From positions 1 through 44,054 of the IMG/VR virus record IMGVR_UViG_3300044612_002370: a stretch of DNA of 44,054 nucleotides; one strand, 5' to 3'. How positions within the stretch are numbered: the first letter of the stretch is position 1; each line of letters starts with the position of its first letter. The position numbers were made by a program, and so were the translations under genes. The notes under the pieces are model-generated. The model was given only the letters and a program-made list of their open reading frames with translations, ran no database searches and was not told the DNA's origin. Positions 1,731 to 44,054 of the stretch are shown in pieces. This stretch comes from a virus.

Positions 1731-2390
1731 TCAAACCCGCTTTGCCGGTTCAACCACGCGCCGGTAGTGCAAACCATTGGCAGCCCAGCCATTGTTAATT
1801 GAAGCCGAAATACCCGATTTGTTAACAAATGCAGCAACAGATGCCTCTTTTATTGATTTATAGCGTTGGCCTGTTTCAATACATTCGACTTCAACAGTAT
1901 GCTTCAATCGCGGGAGATTCATGGCTACAATCTTGGAAGCGTGTATTTCCGAGTCAAATAGCTGAGTAAGCTCTGAAAGGCCAATACCCCCAAACTGGTT
2001 AGGATGCTTTTTAGCAAATTCCCGTAACGCTTTGCGAGATATACACCAATGATTATTTTTTGACTTATAGCGATAAATTGCTTTTAACTTTCCTGACAAA
2101 ATCCAGCTAAGTATTTTTTTATTGTTATATCCCGTAAGAACTGTAATGGCAGATGTTGTAATAAATTCACCTTGAGGCTTGATTGACAGACCCATGGCCT
2201 CTGCTTGCCGGGTCAAAGCCTTGGGAGTTCGAGGGGGCCGGGCTTGGTTGAACTGATCAACAACCATGTGCCACGGGATCTCCCCAGCAAGGTCCGCCAA
2301 AAGTTCGAGGTCTTCCAGCGTCCATCGCCTCCACTCACGTTTGGGTGCTGGTTGGGTCATGGCTGGTGGGGGGGGGAAGGTGGTGGTCAA
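1731..2390 (-). CDS. DNA-binding protein with SANT-like, HTH and NUMOD1-like parts
   Basis: 219 residues; an internal ATG (residue 11, MTQPAPKREW) may be the true start. The N-terminus (REWRRWTLEDLELLADLAGE) looks like a Myb/SANT-type helical DNA-binding unit. The centre (residues about 76-130) resembles a helix-turn-helix of the type that reads a YNNKKILSWILSGKLKAI segment. The C-terminus (VECIETGQRYKSIKEAS) matches the NUMOD1 repeat usually attached to homing endonucleases. No HNH or GIY-YIG nuclease is present. The AT-rich middle part differs from its neighbours, suggesting separate acquisition. It is the first gene downstream of the AGTTCAC cluster and could be its regulator. Confidence 0.6.
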   Translation of the reverse strand: MTTTFPPPPAMTQPAPKREWRRWTLEDLELLADLAGEIPWHMVVDQFNQARPPRTPKALTRQAEAMGLSIKPQGEFITTSAITVLTGYNNKKILSWILSGKLKAIYRYKSKNNHWCISRKALREFAKKHPNQFGGIGLSELTQLFDSEIHASKIVAMNLPRLKHTVEVECIETGQRYKSIKEASVAAFVNKSGISASINNGWAANGLHYRRVVEPAKRV

Positions 2391-2658
2391 GCGTGAAATT
2401 CTGGGCCGCCAATGGCATCAGCAGACCGCTGATCCCTATTTATGGCAGTCCATCCCTTGTGAGTGAACAACTGAAAACGCAGGCTATGACTGGTCTCTTC
2501 CTTGTTCATATGAAGTTCACACGCCCTCTCGATGTGAACTTCCTAGGCCGCTTTTGAAATTGTCCTAGCAAGTTCACATGTGAACTTCAAATGAACAACT
2601 CAAAACCCTGTCTCTGTCTGTCTTTTTAAAAGTTCATTCACACCGAGAAGGGAGCCAT
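2391..2658. promoter_or_regulatory. Regulatory region with clustered AGTTCAC/GTGAACT sites
   Basis: This intergenic region upstream of the leftward gene at 2390 is AT-richer than the genome. It contains a perfect 18-base palindrome, AAGTTCACATGTGAACTT, at 2570-2587. Related half-sites occur at about 2463 (GTGAACAAC-like), 2504-2520 (TTCATATGAA followed by AGTTCAC), 2533-2541 (TGTGAACTT), 2591-2597 (ATGAACA) and 2631-2641 (AGTTCATTCAC). The arrangement fits a dimeric regulator or an iteron cluster. No clear promoter hexamers were assigned. Confidence 0.65.
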
Positions 2659-4863
2659 TTAAGGAGGATCGGAACTTGAGCAGAGAAGCTCGACGAGCCT
2701 TGGGGCCAGTCGGTAGTGGCCTCTGACGCTGGGAACCCTGACCACTTCAGGCCACTTGCCGCCGCTGACCCTGGTCAGGCCATTGCGGATCGTGCCCTGG
2801 CTGTACCTGAAACGGCTTTGAAGCTCCTCGACGATCGCCCTGCTGCTCAGCGATGCCCGGCCTTTATTCATGGCTTCAGTGAGCACCTCGACAATTGCAG
2901 CGCGGCAATCCCTGATGACCTCAACGGTGTGGCAAACCGCGAGGCAGCCTGTTTCTTCGTCAATCCGGTACATGAACTCCCGCGCAGTCCCCTGGCGGCA
3001 CTTGCGAACTCTCCAACTGCGGAGCCTTGTGTTAAACCTGACGGCCTTGCCTTTCGGTCCGCCGTCCCCGTTTTCATCCATCCCCTCGGGGACCAATTCG
3101 ATCGAATGGACCACAGACGGGATTTCCTTCCAGGCCTTGGCCCCTGCAGCCTCACCGCCTGCAGTCCCATCATGATTAACCCAAACCACGGCGCAATGGC
3201 GACAGATAACTTCCTTGAAAAACGTAAGGAGGGCAGTGATCTGGCCGTTGTCGCAATAGTTGAGATCGGCTTTGGACGTGACGGCTTTGCAGGAATCGAT
3301 GATCACCAATGAAATTTGCTCCTGCCGGACAAATTCCAGAAGCCGCAAACACCCCCTTAGGGACGCCTCCCAAGCGATTGCCGCCTGTTCTGTGTCATGG
3401 GCCCACACATGCAGCCTGGGGCCACCTGCAGCGTCACTGATGGCCGGATCAGCGTCGCGGCCCATCTCCTGAATTGATCGAATCAGAGGGGCAGTGCCGG
3501 AATCGGATGCAATCAACAAGACGTGGCCTTGAGGAGCATGGGTGGCGCGATCCAAAAACCCGGCGCCATCGGTAACGGCAAACGCCATGGCAAGGGCTGC
3601 TGTGGTCTTACCAGCCCCCGCTGGGGCGTACAGAAGTGCTTGATCCTTGTCAGGGATGAAACCCTCTAGGAGCCAGTCAATGCCGGTAACACGCGACAGG
3701 TCGATTGATCGATAGTCGGGCTTCTGCTGCTGGCTTTTGCTTTCCTGCTCTTGGCGACTGAGAAGGCGAAATAGTGCGGCGGTGATTCGCCCATCGGTCT
3801 GGCGAAAGCGGGCCATGATTTCAGCCCGTATTGCCATTTCCGCATCCTCGTCACCAGCCCGAACGGCATCGAGGGCCAGGGCCAAAAGCTCGCCAAAGGT
3901 CGGTGGTTTTTCCGCCTCCTGCTGCTCCTGCTGCTCCTCAGCCTCCACCAGCGTCCAATAGGCCTCGGTGGCCGCCTCGATTATGTCGAGGATCGCGCTC
4001 TCGGGCCCATCTGGGGCGTCATCAATCGACCCGCCATCGGGAATTGAGGGCCATAGGTCGATGGCCGGTATCACGATCATGGGCAGCCCTGCCTGCGCAG
4101 CGGCCTCGGCTGCGTTCTCGGCGCGCCGTCGCCCCTCCTGTTGATGCACCGGCCGGTCGGGGCCGTCATGGTCGGCCAAGTAAACCACTCCTGGGCACCC
4201 CGCATCCCGCAGCGCCTGGTAGCGGGGCACGATCTGCTCAATAGTGTGGGCATGGCCCGGCTGGCTGATACTGACCACCCCCTCTGCAGCGCAGAGTTCT
4301 GCGCATTTTTCGCCCTCGGGTTCGAGAATCCAGCCATCGGCGCCGATCGTGTCGGCCAGGTTAAAAACGGGCCACGGGTCAGGGCCGGCGCCCTTCTCCC
4401 ATTTGTCATCCAGCAGAAGATGAAACCCGTAGAACGCCTTGTCACCGTCAGGAAGCGCCACCCGTTTAACCAACTGGGTGGGCCCATAGCGGTATGGGCT
4501 GCCGCCTGGTTCCCTAGGGGTCATCCTGGCCAGGGCCGGGGGCCGGATAGGCAAAGGCGCCGGCTGTGTCCGCGCTGGCTCGGCTGGCCGCTGCTGAATC
4601 GATCGCCTGGGGAAGCGCTGGGCCCCGTCGCGTGGTTTGTCGAGGGTGTAATGGCCTGCCCTGCCGTCCCTTGTGTTGGCGGTGAAGGCCCAGGCCTGCT
4701 CATCCGCCCCGGTCACCACCTCGCCGGGCCGGTGGTCTTTGGGGTGATGACAGATCACCTCAAGGCCGTCGGATGACATGCGGCAGTCGCTGTCTTTCGT
4801 TCTGCCGCAGACAGGGCAAGGGTTGCGCCTGCCGCTGGGGAGCAATTTTTGTTTGTCGCCCAT
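2659..4863 (-). CDS. Primase-helicase (zinc finger, TOPRIM, RecA-like ATPase)
   Basis: A 734-residue replication protein. The N-terminus has a zinc-binding motif (C16, C19, C27, C38 with following histidines) typical of phage primases. A TOPRIM-like region follows at about 175-270, with EGEKCAE and the metal-binding YLADHDG. An AAA/RepA-type ATPase occupies about 390-640, with Walker A APAGAGKTT near 414 and Walker B LVIIDS near 521. The C-terminal ~70 residues look like a winged helix. It would unwind and prime the phage DNA; the genome has no DNA polymerase, so the host enzyme is presumably recruited. Its ATG overlaps the stop of the regulator upstream (TAATG). Confidence 0.85.
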   Translation of the reverse strand: MGDKQKLLPSGRRNPCPVCGRTKDSDCRMSSDGLEVICHHPKDHRPGEVVTGADEQAWAFTANTRDGRAGHYTLDKPRDGAQRFPRRSIQQRPAEPARTQPAPLPIRPPALARMTPREPGGSPYRYGPTQLVKRVALPDGDKAFYGFHLLLDDKWEKGAGPDPWPVFNLADTIGADGWILEPEGEKCAELCAAEGVVSISQPGHAHTIEQIVPRYQALRDAGCPGVVYLADHDGPDRPVHQQEGRRRAENAAEAAAQAGLPMIVIPAIDLWPSIPDGGSIDDAPDGPESAILDIIEAATEAYWTLVEAEEQQEQQEAEKPPTFGELLALALDAVRAGDEDAEMAIRAEIMARFRQTDGRITAALFRLLSRQEQESKSQQQKPDYRSIDLSRVTGIDWLLEGFIPDKDQALLYAPAGAGKTTAALAMAFAVTDGAGFLDRATHAPQGHVLLIASDSGTAPLIRSIQEMGRDADPAISDAAGGPRLHVWAHDTEQAAIAWEASLRGCLRLLEFVRQEQISLVIIDSCKAVTSKADLNYCDNGQITALLTFFKEVICRHCAVVWVNHDGTAGGEAAGAKAWKEIPSVVHSIELVPEGMDENGDGGPKGKAVRFNTRLRSWRVRKCRQGTAREFMYRIDEETGCLAVCHTVEVIRDCRAAIVEVLTEAMNKGRASLSSRAIVEELQSRFRYSQGTIRNGLTRVSGGKWPEVVRVPSVRGHYRLAPRLVELLCSSSDPP

Positions 4864-14092: not shown

Positions 14093-14704
14093 ATGGATTC
14101 ATCTATCAATCTGTCCGAAATTTTGGCTAGCCATGCCAAATGGTTAGCTGACACAGCAACCGGAGACAGGTCCAACCTCAGCGGGGCCGACCTCAGCGGG
14201 GCCGACCTCAGCGGGGCCGACCTCAGCAGGGCCGACCTCAGCAGGGCCGACCTCAGCAGGGCCGACCTCAGCAGGGCCAACCTCAGCTGGGCCAACCTCA
14301 GCGGGGCCGACCTCAGCGGGGCCGACCTCAGCAGGGCCAACCTCAGCAGGGCCGACCTCAGCAGGGCCGACCTCAGCAGGGCCAACCTCAGCAGGGCCGA
14401 CCTCAGCAGGGCAGTGGGCTTGGCCGTTGCGGTTGATGCCCCCCAGCGACTCCAGGCCGCCATAGCCGCAGCGCTCCAGCCAGGCGCCTTAGAGATGGAC
14501 TGTTGGCATACTTGCGAAACCACGCATTGCCTAGGAGGGACTGCAATCCACCAGGCCGGCGAATTGGGCCGATTGTTGGAAGCTGTGGCAGGTCCTAATT
14601 TGGCTGCTCTTATGTTGCTGGGCCCAGAGGCTCATGCCCACTTTTTTGACAGCAACGAGGATGCAATTAAATGGATGCGGTCTGTAATGCAATCTCCGGC
14701 ATAA
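14093..14704 (+). CDS. Pentapeptide-repeat protein
   Basis: 203 residues. Residues 28-107 contain 16 perfect-length pentapeptides ([15 protein letters not shown] and NLSWA types), which fold as a right-handed quadrilateral beta-helix. The C-terminal ~90 residues (from [26 protein letters not shown]) form a separate domain with conserved-looking Cys/His and an Ala/Leu helix. The repeat is unusually uniform (D/N-L-S-G/R/W-A). Some such proteins mimic DNA and inhibit gyrase, but nothing here shows that. Follows the RecT gene with a 30-base gap. Confidence 0.75.
14174..14413 (+). repeat. 15-bp coding repeat array
   Basis: Sixteen units of the form GAC-CTC-AGC-(G/A)GG-GCC encoding the pentapeptides. 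They are nearly identical at DNA level, including third positions. This points to recent expansion or gene conversion by repeat slippage rather than long-term protein selection alone. Confidence 0.9.
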
Positions 14705-19344: not shown

Positions 19345-19860
19345 ATGACTATCCTGGCTGACTTTCAAATCCGCGCCCTTTGCGAATCGGGCATGGTCAC
19401 ACCCTTTGATCCCGAACTGCTGAATCCCGCCAGCCTGGATCTTCGCCTGGGTTCAAACATCCTGATTGAATCCAGTGAAGGCCCGGATCTTGTGCCCTGC
19501 TGCATTGCCAACTACACCCCCGCAAATCCCTATCAGGTGGTGCCAGGGCAATTCCTGCTCGCCGAAGCGGAGCCCATTTTTAACCTGCCCAATTGCATTG
19601 CAGCGCAGTTCGTGCTGAAGTCATCCCGCGCCCGTGAGGGATTGCAGCATCTGCTTGCTGGATGGTGCGATCCAGGCTGGAACGGTTCCCGCCTGACCCT
19701 TGAACTAAAAAACGTGCGCCAGCTTCATTGGGTTGGTATCTACCCAGGGCTCAAGATCGGGCAGATGAAGTTTATGAAGATGGATGCGACACCACTGGCA
19801 AGCTACGCAAAGACCGGCCGCTACAACGGGGACCAAACCGTCAGGGGGTCACGTGGATAG
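19345..19860 (+). CDS. dcd: dCTP deaminase/dUTPase-family protein
   Basis: 171 residues, ATG 19345. The trimeric dCTP deaminase fold is visible: NPASLDLRLGSNILIE at the start, then the ligand segment SSRAREGLQHLLAGWCDPGW with the Ser-Arg-Ala pair, and VGIYPGLKIGQMKFMKMD at the core. Dcd makes dUMP precursors for dTMP synthesis. The next gene encodes thymidylate kinase, so both increase dTTP. No thymidylate synthase was found, so the host enzyme would be needed. Confidence 0.82.
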   Translation: MTILADFQIRALCESGMVTPFDPELLNPASLDLRLGSNILIESSEGPDLVPCCIANYTPANPYQVVPGQFLLAEAEPIFNLPNCIAAQFVLKSSRAREGLQHLLAGWCDPGWNGSRLTLELKNVRQLHWVGIYPGLKIGQMKFMKMDATPLASYAKTGRYNGDQTVRGSRG

Positions 19861-20515
19861 GCCCAACCCAACCCCAGCCCGTGGCCGCTTCATCGTGCTA
19901 GAGGGCATCGACGGCTGCGGCAAGACCACGCAGCTGGAGGCCCTGCGCCAATGGCTGCCCACCAGCGGCCTGCTGCCCCCTGGCGCCCAGTTGGTTGTGA
20001 GCCGTGAGCCTGGGGGGACTGCCCTGGGCCAGGCGTTGCGGGAGCTGCTGCTGCACCCTCCCGACGGAACAGCCCCGGTGCCGCGTGCAGAGCTCCTGCT
20101 GTATGCGGCCGACCGCGCCCAGCATGTGGAAACCGTTCTGCGGCCGGCGCTCGATGCCGGGGATTGGGTGCTGTGCGATCGCTTCACCGGATCGACATTC
20201 GCATATCAGGGCTATGGCAGGGGCTTGCCCCTTGGCCTGATTGACACACTGTCAGACATCGCCACGGGCGATCTGCGTGCCGATCTGACCCTCTGGCTAG
20301 ACGTGTCCCTGGCCGAGTCCTGTCGCCGACGTGGTGGCCAATTAGCCGACCGCATTGAGGGGGAGGGGGTGGCGTTTCTGGGCCGTGTAGTCGCTGGATT
20401 CGAGGGCCCTGCGGGGGGGTGGGACTGGGCCCGCATCGATGCAGACTTGCCGGTAGATGTCGTGACGGAGGCCTGTTGCCGCGCCATGGTGCGCCAGTTT
20501 GGGGGGCGGGCATGA
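19853..20515 (+). CDS. tmk: Thymidylate kinase
   Basis: 220 residues from GTG 19853, chosen because it overlaps the dcd stop (GTGGATAG). dTMP is phosphorylated to dTDP. The P-loop is G18-IDGCGKT-25 in VLEGIDGCGKTTQ; the DR-motif and dTMP site are SREPGGTALGQALRELLL and YAADRAQH; the LID-type region is RRGGQLADRIEGEG. The length is normal. Its stop overlaps the methylase ATG. Confidence 0.9.
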   Translation: MDRPNPTPARGRFIVLEGIDGCGKTTQLEALRQWLPTSGLLPPGAQLVVSREPGGTALGQALRELLLHPPDGTAPVPRAELLLYAADRAQHVETVLRPALDAGDWVLCDRFTGSTFAYQGYGRGLPLGLIDTLSDIATGDLRADLTLWLDVSLAESCRRRGGQLADRIEGEGVAFLGRVVAGFEGPAGGWDWARIDADLPVDVVTEACCRAMVRQFGGRA

Positions 20516-21552
20516 CCCTGGCCGCACCCTTCCCTTACTTTGGCGGCAAGCGCCGCGCCGCTCTCCGCGTCTGGCAGGCCCTCGGCGATCCCGCTGGCTA
20601 TGTCGAGCCATTTGCCGGATCGGCTGCTGTGTTGCTGGCCCGGCCTGCATTCACCGGCCGCCGGGTTGAGACCCTGAACGATGCGGACGGCTGGCTGGTG
20701 AACACCTGGCGAGCAATTCAGCTCAGCCCTGCCGAGGTAGCCCATCACGCCTGGGGCCCCGTGGCAGAGATCGATTACCACGCTCGCTTGGCATGGCTGC
20801 AACAGCGCCGCACGCCTGACCTGGTGGCATGGCTTGAGGGCGACCCGGAGGCGCATGACGCCAAGGCTGCCGGGTGGTGGCTCTATGTGGTTGCCTGCGG
20901 CATCGGTGATCCGTTTGGCCCTGGGCCGTGGCGGGTGGTGGATGGCCATCTCCGCAAGCTGCCGCACCTGGGGGATGCGGGGCAGGGCGTGAATCGCAAG
21001 CTGCCGCACCTGGGGGATGCGGGGCAGGGCGTGAATCGCAAGCTGCCGCACCTGGGGGATGCGGGGCAGGGCGTGAATCGCAAGCTGCCGCACCTGGGGG
21101 ATGCGGGGCAGGGCCAGCTTGAGAGCTACATGGGGCAGCTTGCTGATCGCCTACGCCGTGTCCGCATCACCTGCGGATCATGGGAGCGGGCGGTGAAGCC
21201 ATCGGTTACCCGCAGCGGCGCCGGTGGCGATGGCAGCCGAGCGATCTTTTTGGATCCGCCCTACGCCACATCAGGTGATCTCTACGCCCATGTTGATGTT
21301 GACGTGGCCCTGGCCGTACGCCAATGGTGCATTACCGCTCCACGTGAGCAGCGAATCATCCTGTGTGGCTACGACGCCGAGCACGACGACCTATTGACCC
21401 ATGGCTGGACTGTTACCGAGGGCAAGGCTGGTGGAGGGGCTGGCTACAACACCAATGGCCTGAACGGTCGCCGCGAGCGGCTGTGGTTGTCACCCGCCTG
21501 TATTGGCAGTGAGCAACCCGACCTGTTCGCCTCAGCGGGGCCGGTGGCGTGA
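20512..21552 (+). CDS. D12-class DNA adenine methyltransferase with 14-residue repeats
   Basis: 346 residues from ATG 20512 (ATGA overlap with tmk). Motifs: FGGK at 10-13 and VEPFAGSAAVL near 35 for AdoMet binding, FLDPPYA near 246 as the catalytic DPPY. This is the Dam-type N6-adenine methylase fold, GATC being the likely target. Between them lies a target-recognition part expanded by a 14-residue repeat (RKLPHLGDAGQGVN), nearly four copies, perfectly repeated in DNA. Such methylation could protect phage DNA from host restriction or time replication. Converges with the 21553-21774 gene. Confidence 0.85.
   Translation: MTLAAPFPYFGGKRRAALRVWQALGDPAGYVEPFAGSAAVLLARPAFTGRRVETLNDADGWLVNTWRAIQLSPAEVAHHAWGPVAEIDYHARLAWLQQRRTPDLVAWLEGDPEAHDAKAAGWWLYVVACGIGDPFGPGPWRVVDGHLRKLPHLGDAGQGVNRKLPHLGDAGQGVNRKLPHLGDAGQGVNRKLPHLGDAGQGQLESYMGQLADRLRRVRITCGSWERAVKPSVTRSGAGGDGSRAIFLDPPYATSGDLYAHVDVDVALAVRQWCITAPREQRIILCGYDAEHDDLLTHGWTVTEGKAGGGAGYNTNGLNGRRERLWLSPACIGSEQPDLFASAGPVA
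20953..21114 (+). repeat. 42-bp perfect tandem repeats in the methylase gene
   Basis: Three full copies (20953-20994, 20995-21036, 21037-21078) and 36 bases of a fourth, all identical. The period is a multiple of three, so copy-number change keeps the frame. Complete identity means very recent expansion or continual gene conversion. Confidence 0.95.
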
Positions 21553-41626: not shown

Positions 41627-43561
41627 TTACCTCTTTAGCCAACCTTTGCGCCTGTCCGGGCCGCCTGTGCTGGAGCCCTTCAGCCAGCCCGATCGCTGGG
41701 GGTTTCGGGCTGGGGGCGCCACCCCTCCCCCTCCTGCCCCCGGCGCCTGGGTGCCCAGGGTGCGGGCGAGCTGGGCCCACATGGTTCCTGCTGCGTAGTT
41801 GCGTTTCACCAGCTCCAACATCCCCAAGATGTAGACCTCCAAATCCAACGGCTCGTTTCGGGCCCCCTTCTCATTCCGCCATTCAGATTGCTCAAAACCT
41901 CTGCCGTCAATTGTGGTTATAAGTTTCTCACAAGTTAAACCCTTAAAGTATTCATCTGTTGCATTTTGCCCAAAGTGCATAAACCCCGGCCCTGGCTGCT
42001 CAATGTTTAACCTTCCGTAAATAGTTCGTTTTAGAGTATGCGTGTTTATCATGTAAAGGGTAACTCCTTTTTTTATCTTGCGACCGCGTAAATTTACGTC
42101 TTGTTTTGTGCCATCGCCAAGGGTTTTAGCTTTCTTGTCGCTGCCGCCTTTGACTGCTACCACTCCCTCGTTGACCCTTTGGCGGCAGTAGTCATAGGCT
42201 TCATGCGTAAAATGCCCCCCAGTGTCAACCGCTGTCTTGTAAACCATCATGGTGCCGCCGCTTGCATGATTAAATACAGTCTTTCGAATTACGTCAATCT
42301 GCTTCCATACTTTATCTTCTGCTGGACTTCCATATACCTTTTCGTGCCATATCAGCCAGCTTTCTTCGCCCACTCCAAAGCCTTTGACCTTGATCTCTAG
42401 CCATGTGTCCTGAACGTCAACCGCAGCCAGTAACAGCAACACCCCATCTGGACAGAACCCGCTCGGATATGGGTTTGCCGCGGCACGTTGCATTAGGCCA
42501 TCGGGGCTCACTTTTGCCGTTGCAGGATCCTCCCAGGCTTCGGCCGCCCTTTTGTTGACCCAGCCCTTCAGGAGCATGGTGTCATTTTTGGCGCGCAAAA
42601 ATTCATCTCGGATCTTCTCCCAGCTCAGCCACCCATAGGGGGCATACCAGCCAGGCAGATGAAACCCTGCCGTCTCGCCATCGCCCTTGGCAGTAGCTCC
42701 CCACACCCCCCCGGCCAGCATCGCCACCTTGTGGTGCTGCGCCAACCGCTCACCGCACGTCGGGCACTTGCACCAAACTTCCCCATCCTTTTTGTCCCAA
42801 ACCATGTGCTCCCAGCGGATCACCTCGTTGCCCCCGCAGCAGGGCATGAACGCGGCAAAGCGTCGACGGTCGCTGCGGTTCTCAAACTCCCAGGTGATCC
42901 GGCACGCGCCCCTAGTGCCAGGGGTGCTGGTGATCAGGGTCTTCCTGTCGGGAAAGTTGGTCTGCCTAGCCTCGGCGTTTTCGATCGGATCGCCCTTGTC
43001 GTCAATCTCCAGGGGCAGGCTTGACGCCTCATCAACCCATAAGTTCTGGGCCGGCATCCCCTGGGCAGCGCTGCCGCTGTTGCCGCCAATGATCGACAGC
43101 AGCATGTCCCCTTGAAACTCTTTCAGGAACATGGCGTTAGCCGCGTCCCTGCTCTTGGTGCTGACCTGCTTTGCGGCAACCGCCGGGGTGTCCTTGAACA
43201 ACGGGTCAAGCCGTTGCCTTACCTGCCGCTTTGCAAAGCTCTCGGTTGGGAACAGGATCAGAAACGGCGCCGGATCCATCGCAATGGTTCGGCCCAGCCA
43301 GTTCAACCCGCATTCAGTTTTGGCCCCTGATTGGCTGCCGAAGATCAAGATCACGCGCCTGATCTTCCTCTCCCGTGGGCTCAACAGGTCCATGGGCTCC
43401 CGCAGAAACGGAACGCGATCGGTTCGCCACTGCCCAGGCTCTGAGCTGCTGCGTCTGGTCAGCTGCCGCTCGGCGTCGGCCCACTCGCTGACACTGAGAT
43501 GCAGCGGCGGTTGAATGGCCTCAATAAAGGCATCCTCGTAAATCTGGCCGCCGTCAGGCAT
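41627..43561 (-). CDS. Terminase large subunit, lambda gpA-type
   Basis: 644 residues from ATG 43561 (MPDGGQIYEDAFIEAIQPPL), which overlaps the small-subunit stop by 8 bases; the longer frame to 43621 is within the other gene. The ATPase has an A-motif ILIFGSQSGAKTE near residue 75 and B-motif LWVDEAS near 173. A zinc-like CC/CxC-PTCGE region (about 250-300) lies between the ATPase and nuclease halves. The nuclease has DVQDTWLEIKVKGFG and AVDTGGHFTHEAYDYC. It cuts concatemers and pumps DNA into the head. Confidence 0.9.
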   Translation of the reverse strand: MPDGGQIYEDAFIEAIQPPLHLSVSEWADAERQLTRRSSSEPGQWRTDRVPFLREPMDLLSPRERKIRRVILIFGSQSGAKTECGLNWLGRTIAMDPAPFLILFPTESFAKRQVRQRLDPLFKDTPAVAAKQVSTKSRDAANAMFLKEFQGDMLLSIIGGNSGSAAQGMPAQNLWVDEASSLPLEIDDKGDPIENAEARQTNFPDRKTLITSTPGTRGACRITWEFENRSDRRRFAAFMPCCGGNEVIRWEHMVWDKKDGEVWCKCPTCGERLAQHHKVAMLAGGVWGATAKGDGETAGFHLPGWYAPYGWLSWEKIRDEFLRAKNDTMLLKGWVNKRAAEAWEDPATAKVSPDGLMQRAAANPYPSGFCPDGVLLLLAAVDVQDTWLEIKVKGFGVGEESWLIWHEKVYGSPAEDKVWKQIDVIRKTVFNHASGGTMMVYKTAVDTGGHFTHEAYDYCRQRVNEGVVAVKGGSDKKAKTLGDGTKQDVNLRGRKIKKGVTLYMINTHTLKRTIYGRLNIEQPGPGFMHFGQNATDEYFKGLTCEKLITTIDGRGFEQSEWRNEKGARNEPLDLEVYILGMLELVKRNYAAGTMWAQLARTLGTQAPGAGGGGVAPPARNPQRSGWLKGSSTGGPDRRKGWLKR

Positions 43562-44054
43562 GTTGCTTGAGCCCCTTGAGGGCGTTCTCAATCTCCTCTT
43601 CAAGCAAGGCCCGCACATCATCGGGTTCGCTCATCGCGGCCAACCGCGCAGCGTTGCGGGTTGGGATGATCAGCAGCAGGTCCCGCACCTGGCGGGCGAG
43701 CTTGGCGGCCCTGGTGCGGACATCCACTTCGGTAACCACCTCGTTTCGATCTCTCAAAGCTCCGACACGCGCCCGCTCGGCGTCGTAGTGCAGCTTGCGT
43801 TTCATGCTGACATCGGCCGCCTGAATTTCATCTTCTGGTAAGCCCAGGATCAGGCTTTTTAGTTCGTTGTCACTGGGCAATCGATCGGGCCCAGTTGGAG
43901 GCGAAACAAGGGCGCCAGGTTCGGGGGAACTTTTTTTGTGGCTATTGCGAACCTTGACTGCATCCCAAAGGCGGTCGGCAATCTCAGAATCAATCAGAAA
44001 TGAGCCATCTTCCTGGGGGATCACCGCCGGCTTGATTCTGATTTGCCTGGCCTC
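43554..44054 (-). CDS. Terminase small subunit, C-terminal part (cut by window edge)
   Basis: Remainder of the small terminase. A GTG at 44024 could be mistaken for the start, but the frame stays open upstream and joins the helix-turn-helix at bases 120-1, so the full product is about 187 residues. The C-terminal half is charged and helical, as expected for the oligomerisation region. Its stop overlaps the start of the large terminase gene by 8 bases (43554-43561), which suggests translational coupling. The family assignment rests on position, size and the N-terminal helix-turn-helix. Confidence 0.8.
   Translation of the reverse strand, partial: EARQIRIKPAVIPQEDGSFLIDSEIADRLWDAVKVRNSHKKSSPEPGALVSPPTGPDRLPSDNELKSLILGLPEDEIQAADVSMKRKLHYDAERARVGALRDRNEVVTEVDVRTRAAKLARQVRDLLLIIPTRNAARLAAMSEPDDVRALLEEEIENALKGLKQHA
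43998..44054. repeat. Terminal direct repeat, right copy
   Basis: Identical to bases 1-57, so the unique circle is 43,997 bp. The repeat lies inside the small terminase coding sequence. A packaging-generated terminal redundancy would normally be either much longer or not this exact, so an assembler overlap is the more likely origin. Confidence 0.95.

Follow-up and report, generated by a model that had tools for sequence, protein, structure and literature searches.

A mirror-symmetric half-site array behind a helicase-primase gene as a putative replication origin in a probable cyanobacterial phage

The locus and its array

The window, as the whole stretch of DNA analysed here is called, is a virus record of 44,054 bp. 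It ends in a 57-bp direct terminal repeat and is therefore probably a complete phage genome, with genes for terminase, portal, tail, RecT/exonuclease, SSB, RusA and a helicase-primase aboard. Its nearest cellular matches are cyanobacteria, which makes a freshwater cyanobacterium the probable host. Genes for dCTP deaminase, thymidylate kinase and DNA methyltransferase lie side by side at 19345–21552, which suggests an altered nucleotide metabolism. A pentapeptide-repeat protein gene (14093–14704), dense in CTCAGC-type short repeats, has a relative in only one (G009) of nine related records. The large terminase (41627–43621) is mosaic, with 98% identity to that of a genome with a CGGGAA array (G005) and 32% to that of one with the same TGAAC array as the window (G001).

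The array occupies the gap between the stop codon of the helicase-primase gene (2659) and the next leftward gene, which starts at 2390 or, more likely, at an ATG at 2360 (Table 1). The earlier note described a perfect 18-bp palindrome at this place, accompanied by at least five related half-sites. The palindrome, AAGTTCACATGTGAACTT, is indeed present (2570–2587) and occurs once in the record, even when up to three mismatches are allowed; the cluster is also real, and its size had been understated, since eight RTGAACWW half-sites are found within it. Scanned over the whole record, this motif occurs 12 times in 44,054 bp, with eight copies in the array and the other four scattered, and an equal density is not seen elsewhere. 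The chance of eight of the 12 sites falling within about 180 bp has a rough bound of 1e-13. The excess over chance that had been proposed thus holds for the clustering and not for the bare heptamer AGTTCAC, which is seen six times genome-wide against 3.3 expected. One AGTTCAC, at about position 400, had been counted as a further half-site; it comes without the extended motif, is an isolated match of the kind expected by chance, and finds no support as a component of the array system.

Table 1. Features of the locus, in positions of the window
Feature	Position	Strand	Basis or remark
Whole iteron array, putative replication origin	2463..2637	.	mirror-symmetric 1-3-3-1 about ~2550; 64-nt inverted arms; kept in L002–L005
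Half-site 1 (outer), GTGAACAA	2463..2470	+	motif scan
AACGCAGGCTATGACTGGTC in outer gap	2476..2495	+	by eye resembles motif-independent element TTGCTATGACTGCG / TTGCNNTGNANNGGATYT of other array types
Half-site 2, ATGAACAA	2502..2509	-	motif scan
Half-site 3, GTGAACTT	2513..2520	-	11 bp from site 2
Half-site 4, GTGAACTT	2534..2541	+	21 bp from site 3
Central region between triads	2542..2569	.	CCTAGG...CCTAG, a short inverted repeat, encloses AATTTCAAAAG-type stretch; candidate for unwinding
Half-site 5, GTGAACTT	2570..2577	-	left half of 18-bp palindrome
Half-site 6, GTGAACTT	2580..2587	+	10 bp from site 5
Half-site 7, ATGAACAA	2591..2598	+	11 bp from site 6
Half-site 8 (outer), ATGAACTT	2630..2637	-	39 bp from site 7
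Helicase-primase gene, 734 aa	2659..4863	-	Pfam AAA_25 4.5e-17
N-terminal primase module	3945..4863	-	CPVCG...CHH zinc-ribbon-like; Toprim-like EGE...DHD by eye
C-terminal helicase module, RecA-like AAA_25 + C-terminal HTH	2659..3702	-	moves together with array
Candidate array-binding domain, C-terminal ~93 aa	2659..2940	-	predicted HTH/wHTH (SQGTIRN); alignment with type-2 wHTH
"NUMOD"/HTH_17 protein gene, 219 aa from TTG	1731..2390	-	ATG at 2360 is the probable conserved start; not array-specific

From site 1 to site 8, the start-to-start spacings are 39, 11, 21, 36, 10, 11 and 39, and mirroring about position ~2550 pairs sites 1/8, 2/7, 3/6 and 4/5, orientation included. The sole marked asymmetry is the spacing of 21 on one side against 10 on the other, a difference of about one helical turn. 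As a whole, the array is an imperfect palindrome whose arms are 70% complementary, and as single-strand DNA it folds into an extended hairpin (z = -6.5). The AT content of the central region is not conspicuously high (0.58–0.65), and the region is largely conserved across five aligned sequences. A roughly palindromic element that is independent of the motif, reading approximately TTGCNNTGNANNGGATYT or, in part of the copies, TTGCTATGACTGCGATTT, is found repeatedly within or close to arrays that belong to several helicase types: in the outer gap of the window, in the 3' outer gap of L007, before the last site group in L016 and L074, and also in L060, L063, L066–L068 and L078. It possibly serves as a binding site for a host factor or as a promoter.

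Conservation, the absence of which would have spoken against the array, is found in four relatives (L002–L005, helicase-primase at 91–94%), which hold it at identical spacing. One half-site is lost in L004 and one in L005, and 38 of the 40 site cores in the window and these relatives are intact. Deviations from the consensus amount to 2 of 200 cells in the site cores, 26 of 665 in the spacers and 114 of 1735 at the third codon positions of the neighbouring gene, a pattern that points to purifying selection on the cores, which vary less than both. A search of the sequence collection for further arrays with the window's site pattern retrieved only the four known relatives.

Array motif and helicase C-module

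The comparison covered 33 related sequences, and 34 contigs were scored for array motif against the class of the C-terminal module (C-module), which is a RecA-like AAA_25 helicase with a C-terminal HTH, a DUF3987 module or a VapE module. Motif and class match in all 34, which carry arrays of TGAAC (five contigs), CGGGAATTT (22), ATGTTGGTC (five), ATGAATGG (one) or GTGCACA (one). The less frequent classes number one to five members. Many of the 34 contigs nearly duplicate one another, so the independent pairings are fewer than 34.

The N-terminal module also occurs, at 78–92% identity, in phages whose C-modules and arrays are different, and no Pfam family specific to it was found. This Toprim-like module (~90% identity) is joined to three C-modules, each with a different array. 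Ten contigs of the first search (L006–L015) and one of the second (L017) have the N-terminal half at 78–92% over residues 1–306, a C-terminal half that differs from that of the window (32–35%), and a CGGGAATTT array directly behind the gene. In L016, an N-terminal half as in the window is joined to a C-terminal half of the DUF3987 class, and the array, of a third kind, consists of ATGTTGGTC. Used as queries, the C-terminal halves are found on other N-modules, namely Prim-Pol in L066 and L068 and another family in L063, L064, L067, L074 and L075. Despite these other N-modules, Prim-Pol included, the arrays of CGGGAA and of ATGTTGG retain their motif. L068 has the one type-2-like helicase (68% to type 2, the CGGGAA class) with an altered recognition helix (HEGSVRNN vs mostly [SNT]E[AS]T[VI]RNN), and its motif is changed to ATGAATGG. 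L078, from a cyanobacterial MAG, encodes a VapE-type protein, and its array has the motif GTGCACA.

When the 56 ORFs of the window are set against nine related records, not all of which are complete, the helicase C-module alone splits by array type, with 96–97% identity to the genomes with TGAAC arrays vs 32% to those with CGGGAA arrays. Since C-module and array are adjacent, their co-segregation could be plain linkage, as neighbouring DNA is often exchanged together, and the array might serve an unrelated function or bind a host protein. We consider this highly improbable: downstream, exchanges took place no more than a few hundred bp away, and upstream they fall within the gene itself, but none lies between C-module and array, and a host ligand would need no new motif for each helicase type. 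N-modules and downstream genes assort freely and C-module and array never do, which places recombination on both sides of the pair and not within it.

The downstream gene is one of those that assort freely. Its product had been proposed in the earlier note as the binder of the array, and its position and a weak HTH_17 match (2.3e-4, below the cut-off) would suit this role. However, its family sits behind all three main arrays: close relatives (89–95%) follow the unrelated CGGGAA arrays of L017 and G005–G008, and family members follow the ATGTTGG arrays of L075–L077. The TGAAC array of L004 has no NUMOD gene and precedes an unrelated one, a MSNPNNAN gene that also follows CGGGAA (L009, L012) and ATGTTGG (L016) arrays. 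The joint occurrence expected of the NUMOD gene and its operator is thus not seen, and there is scarcely any chance that this protein is the ligand.

The mirrored layout is not confined to the TGAAC class (type 1). Counted from the stop codon, the type 1 sites lie at 21+, 62-, 73-, 81+ | 119-, 138+, 149+, 190-, and those of type 2 (L007) at 73+, 128+, 139+, 150+ | 181-, 200-, 211-, 266-. Both types, with unrelated motifs, have a common 1-3-3-1 plan of outer site, triad, centre, triad and outer site, and in both one triad is stretched by about one turn. That unrelated words are arranged on a common plan suggests that proteins assemble here in a fixed way, for example as two oppositely facing groups of helicase protomers.

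Some of the related contigs show further repeats. Runs of about 9–14 C or G flank the type-2 arrays of L006–L015 on both sides. In L067 (4567–5020), eight CGGGAA sites are accompanied by eight copies of a second repeat family, AGTGCTACC / GTAGCA, possibly as a composite origin or the remnant of another one. On a cellular contig of Chlorogloea (L081, 10058–10500), nine CACAACC repeats follow a primase gene with a related N-terminus, which is possibly the same primase-array design within an integrated element.

The array as a putative origin

The earlier note left the choice between an operator array and a replication origin. The origin is the best-supported reading, because the array is conserved, palindromic, site-phased, located directly behind the helicase-primase gene and swapped as a unit with the C-module; the operator fits less well. 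On this comparative evidence, the array is probably the replication origin of the phage, read in cis by the C-terminal HTH of the adjoining helicase-primase.

As an operator array, it would let a phage regulator or an autoregulating helicase govern the leftward operon, which has the NUMOD/HTH gene at its head and may cross the circular junction into the late genes. Its position upstream of this operon is appropriate, palindromic operators are common, and P4-like initiators can also act as regulators. On the other hand, no sigma-70-like promoter was found in 2350–2750, no candidate regulator gene tracks the motif as the helicase C-module does, the array persists while the downstream gene changes, and eight mirror-arranged sites are more than an operator usually has, which together make this function rather unlikely. 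Another cis site of replicon maintenance, for partition (centromere), recombination/resolution or packaging, appears less probable still. Inverted half-site arrays also mark centromeres and recombination sites, and the gene for a RusA resolvase is found two genes downstream, but among the 56 ORFs compared with the nine records no co-segregating ParB-like or integrase gene was found, the specificity partner is a helicase, and the terminase genes do not follow the array (98% to type 2 G005; 32% to type 1 G001).

The weakest link of the origin reading is the HTH at the C-terminus of the window's protein, which is predicted from alignment and low-confidence models (pLDDT 57–61). In these models the C-terminal domain has the order helix-helix-helix-strand-strand-helix, and in a fold search the C-module model, also of low confidence, fits the RecA/RadA/RepA/DnaB fold, with the RepA structure 1nlf among the matches. 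The isolated C-terminal domain, a poor model, gave no match in the fold search, and by sequence no solved structure matches the C-module convincingly. The type-2 C-termini match winged-helix families weakly, and in the type 3 (DUF3987) and VapE modules no C-terminal HTH was identified. With the full helicase-primase and three C-modules as queries, no relatives were found among 50,697 named phages at E 1e-5.

If the array is an origin, the half-sites, which at distances of 10, 11 or 21 bp are in helical phase, would be occupied by several helicase protomers in two oppositely facing groups, one per mirror half. Two helicase rings would in this way be placed head to head around the central region and open it, and the fused primase domain would prime both directions. 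HTH binding, loading of a double hexamer and origin activity are all inferred. GC skew, which the earlier note had suggested as a check, is at most weakly supportive: its minimum lies 0.8–1.9 kb from the array in four genomes and about 6 kb in two (0.8–6.3 kb over the six), and it is confounded by the divergent gene boundary with which it coincides.

The helicase C-module and the array would then constitute one exchangeable specificity cassette, while the primase domain at the N-terminus and the genes downstream are exchanged independently of it. A broader reading, which we regard as tentative and rather doubtful, is that cyanobacterial phages possess plug-in replication cassettes, in which the unrelated helicase classes AAA_25, DUF3987 and VapE are swapped behind a common primase, each with its own iteron word read by the recognition helix and with the mirrored plan kept. 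The code would pair [SNT]E[AS]T-x-RN with GGGAA, and QGT/EGS-x-RN with TGAA. If true, this would be a naturally occurring recognition code, and the phages would possibly fall into incompatibility groups. From the pairing of helicase and array, it may be possible to foresee which phages in a co-infection compete for one another's origins and which ignore them.

Origins in phages of this kind are poorly described, and a full-text literature search on iteron replication origins of cyanophages found nothing relevant. The present case would make an origin recognisable from its anatomy alone, with several natural helicase/array pairs available, and DUF3987, a domain of unknown function, would likely be an origin-specific helicase.

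Comparison with known systems

The Cch and SaPI Rep helicases belong to the SF3/AAA+ class. The C-terminal domains of SaPI Rep and SCCmec Cch2, both from staphylococcal islands, bind iterons located directly 3' of their own genes (PMC7581432). The window resembles these systems in its short iterons directly downstream of the gene for their own initiator helicase and, as proposed here, in C-terminal recognition; it differs in that AAA_25 (RecA-like) or DUF3987 helicases are fused to a primase domain, the motifs are others, and the carriers are tailed phages, probably of cyanobacteria.

The alpha protein of P4 binds its repeats through a C-terminal winged helix (PMC4234260), and the P4 record shows the crr array immediately behind the alpha gene; most copies of its type-1 repeats read GGTGAACA. 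Both proteins would unite primase, helicase and a C-terminal origin binder (a winged helix in P4, predicted here), and the P4 iteron has a GTGAAC core in common with the window array. P4 alpha, however, is of the D5/SF3 type with a Pox_D5 C-terminus, unlike the AAA_25 protein of the window, and P4 requires ori1 and crr, whereas one array is seen in the window. Profile comparison of the two proteins gave no homology beyond the P-loop, and for a C-terminal winged helix homologous to that of P4 alpha (1ka8 / Pox_D5) the hhalign probability of the window's C-terminal domain was a negligible 0.4%, so the common core is a curiosity and not evidence of descent.

A putative hairpin-forming origin downstream of the replication gene and an initiator with a C-terminal winged helix are also described for the crenarchaeal plasmid pRN1 and its protein ORF904 (PMC4234260); these three traits have parallels here, the winged helix as a prediction, but pRN1 has Prim-Pol and SF3 and a stem-loop instead of iterons. 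RSF1010 has a RecA-like hexameric helicase (RepA) and an iteron origin, comparable to the helicase and the putative origin of the window, but its iterons are recognised by a separate protein, RepC (PMC4234260), while the recognition domain of the window appears to be fused to the helicase.

Two properties of SaPI/P4-type systems are found in the window and its relatives, namely an iteron array directly 3' of the helicase gene and, by comparison of the 34 contigs, an iteron sequence that follows the helicase C-terminal domain in all of them. The helicase core is not of the SF3/D5 type but AAA_25 in the window and type 2, and DUF3987 in type 3. By analogy, the window array would function like these systems, and it is not classed as a member. 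The design of a downstream origin recognised by its own helicase would thereby extend from SF3-type to RecA-like and DUF3987 helicases, and what appears to be new is that such helicases, with recognition of their own origin, are swapped as cassettes behind interchangeable primase domains.
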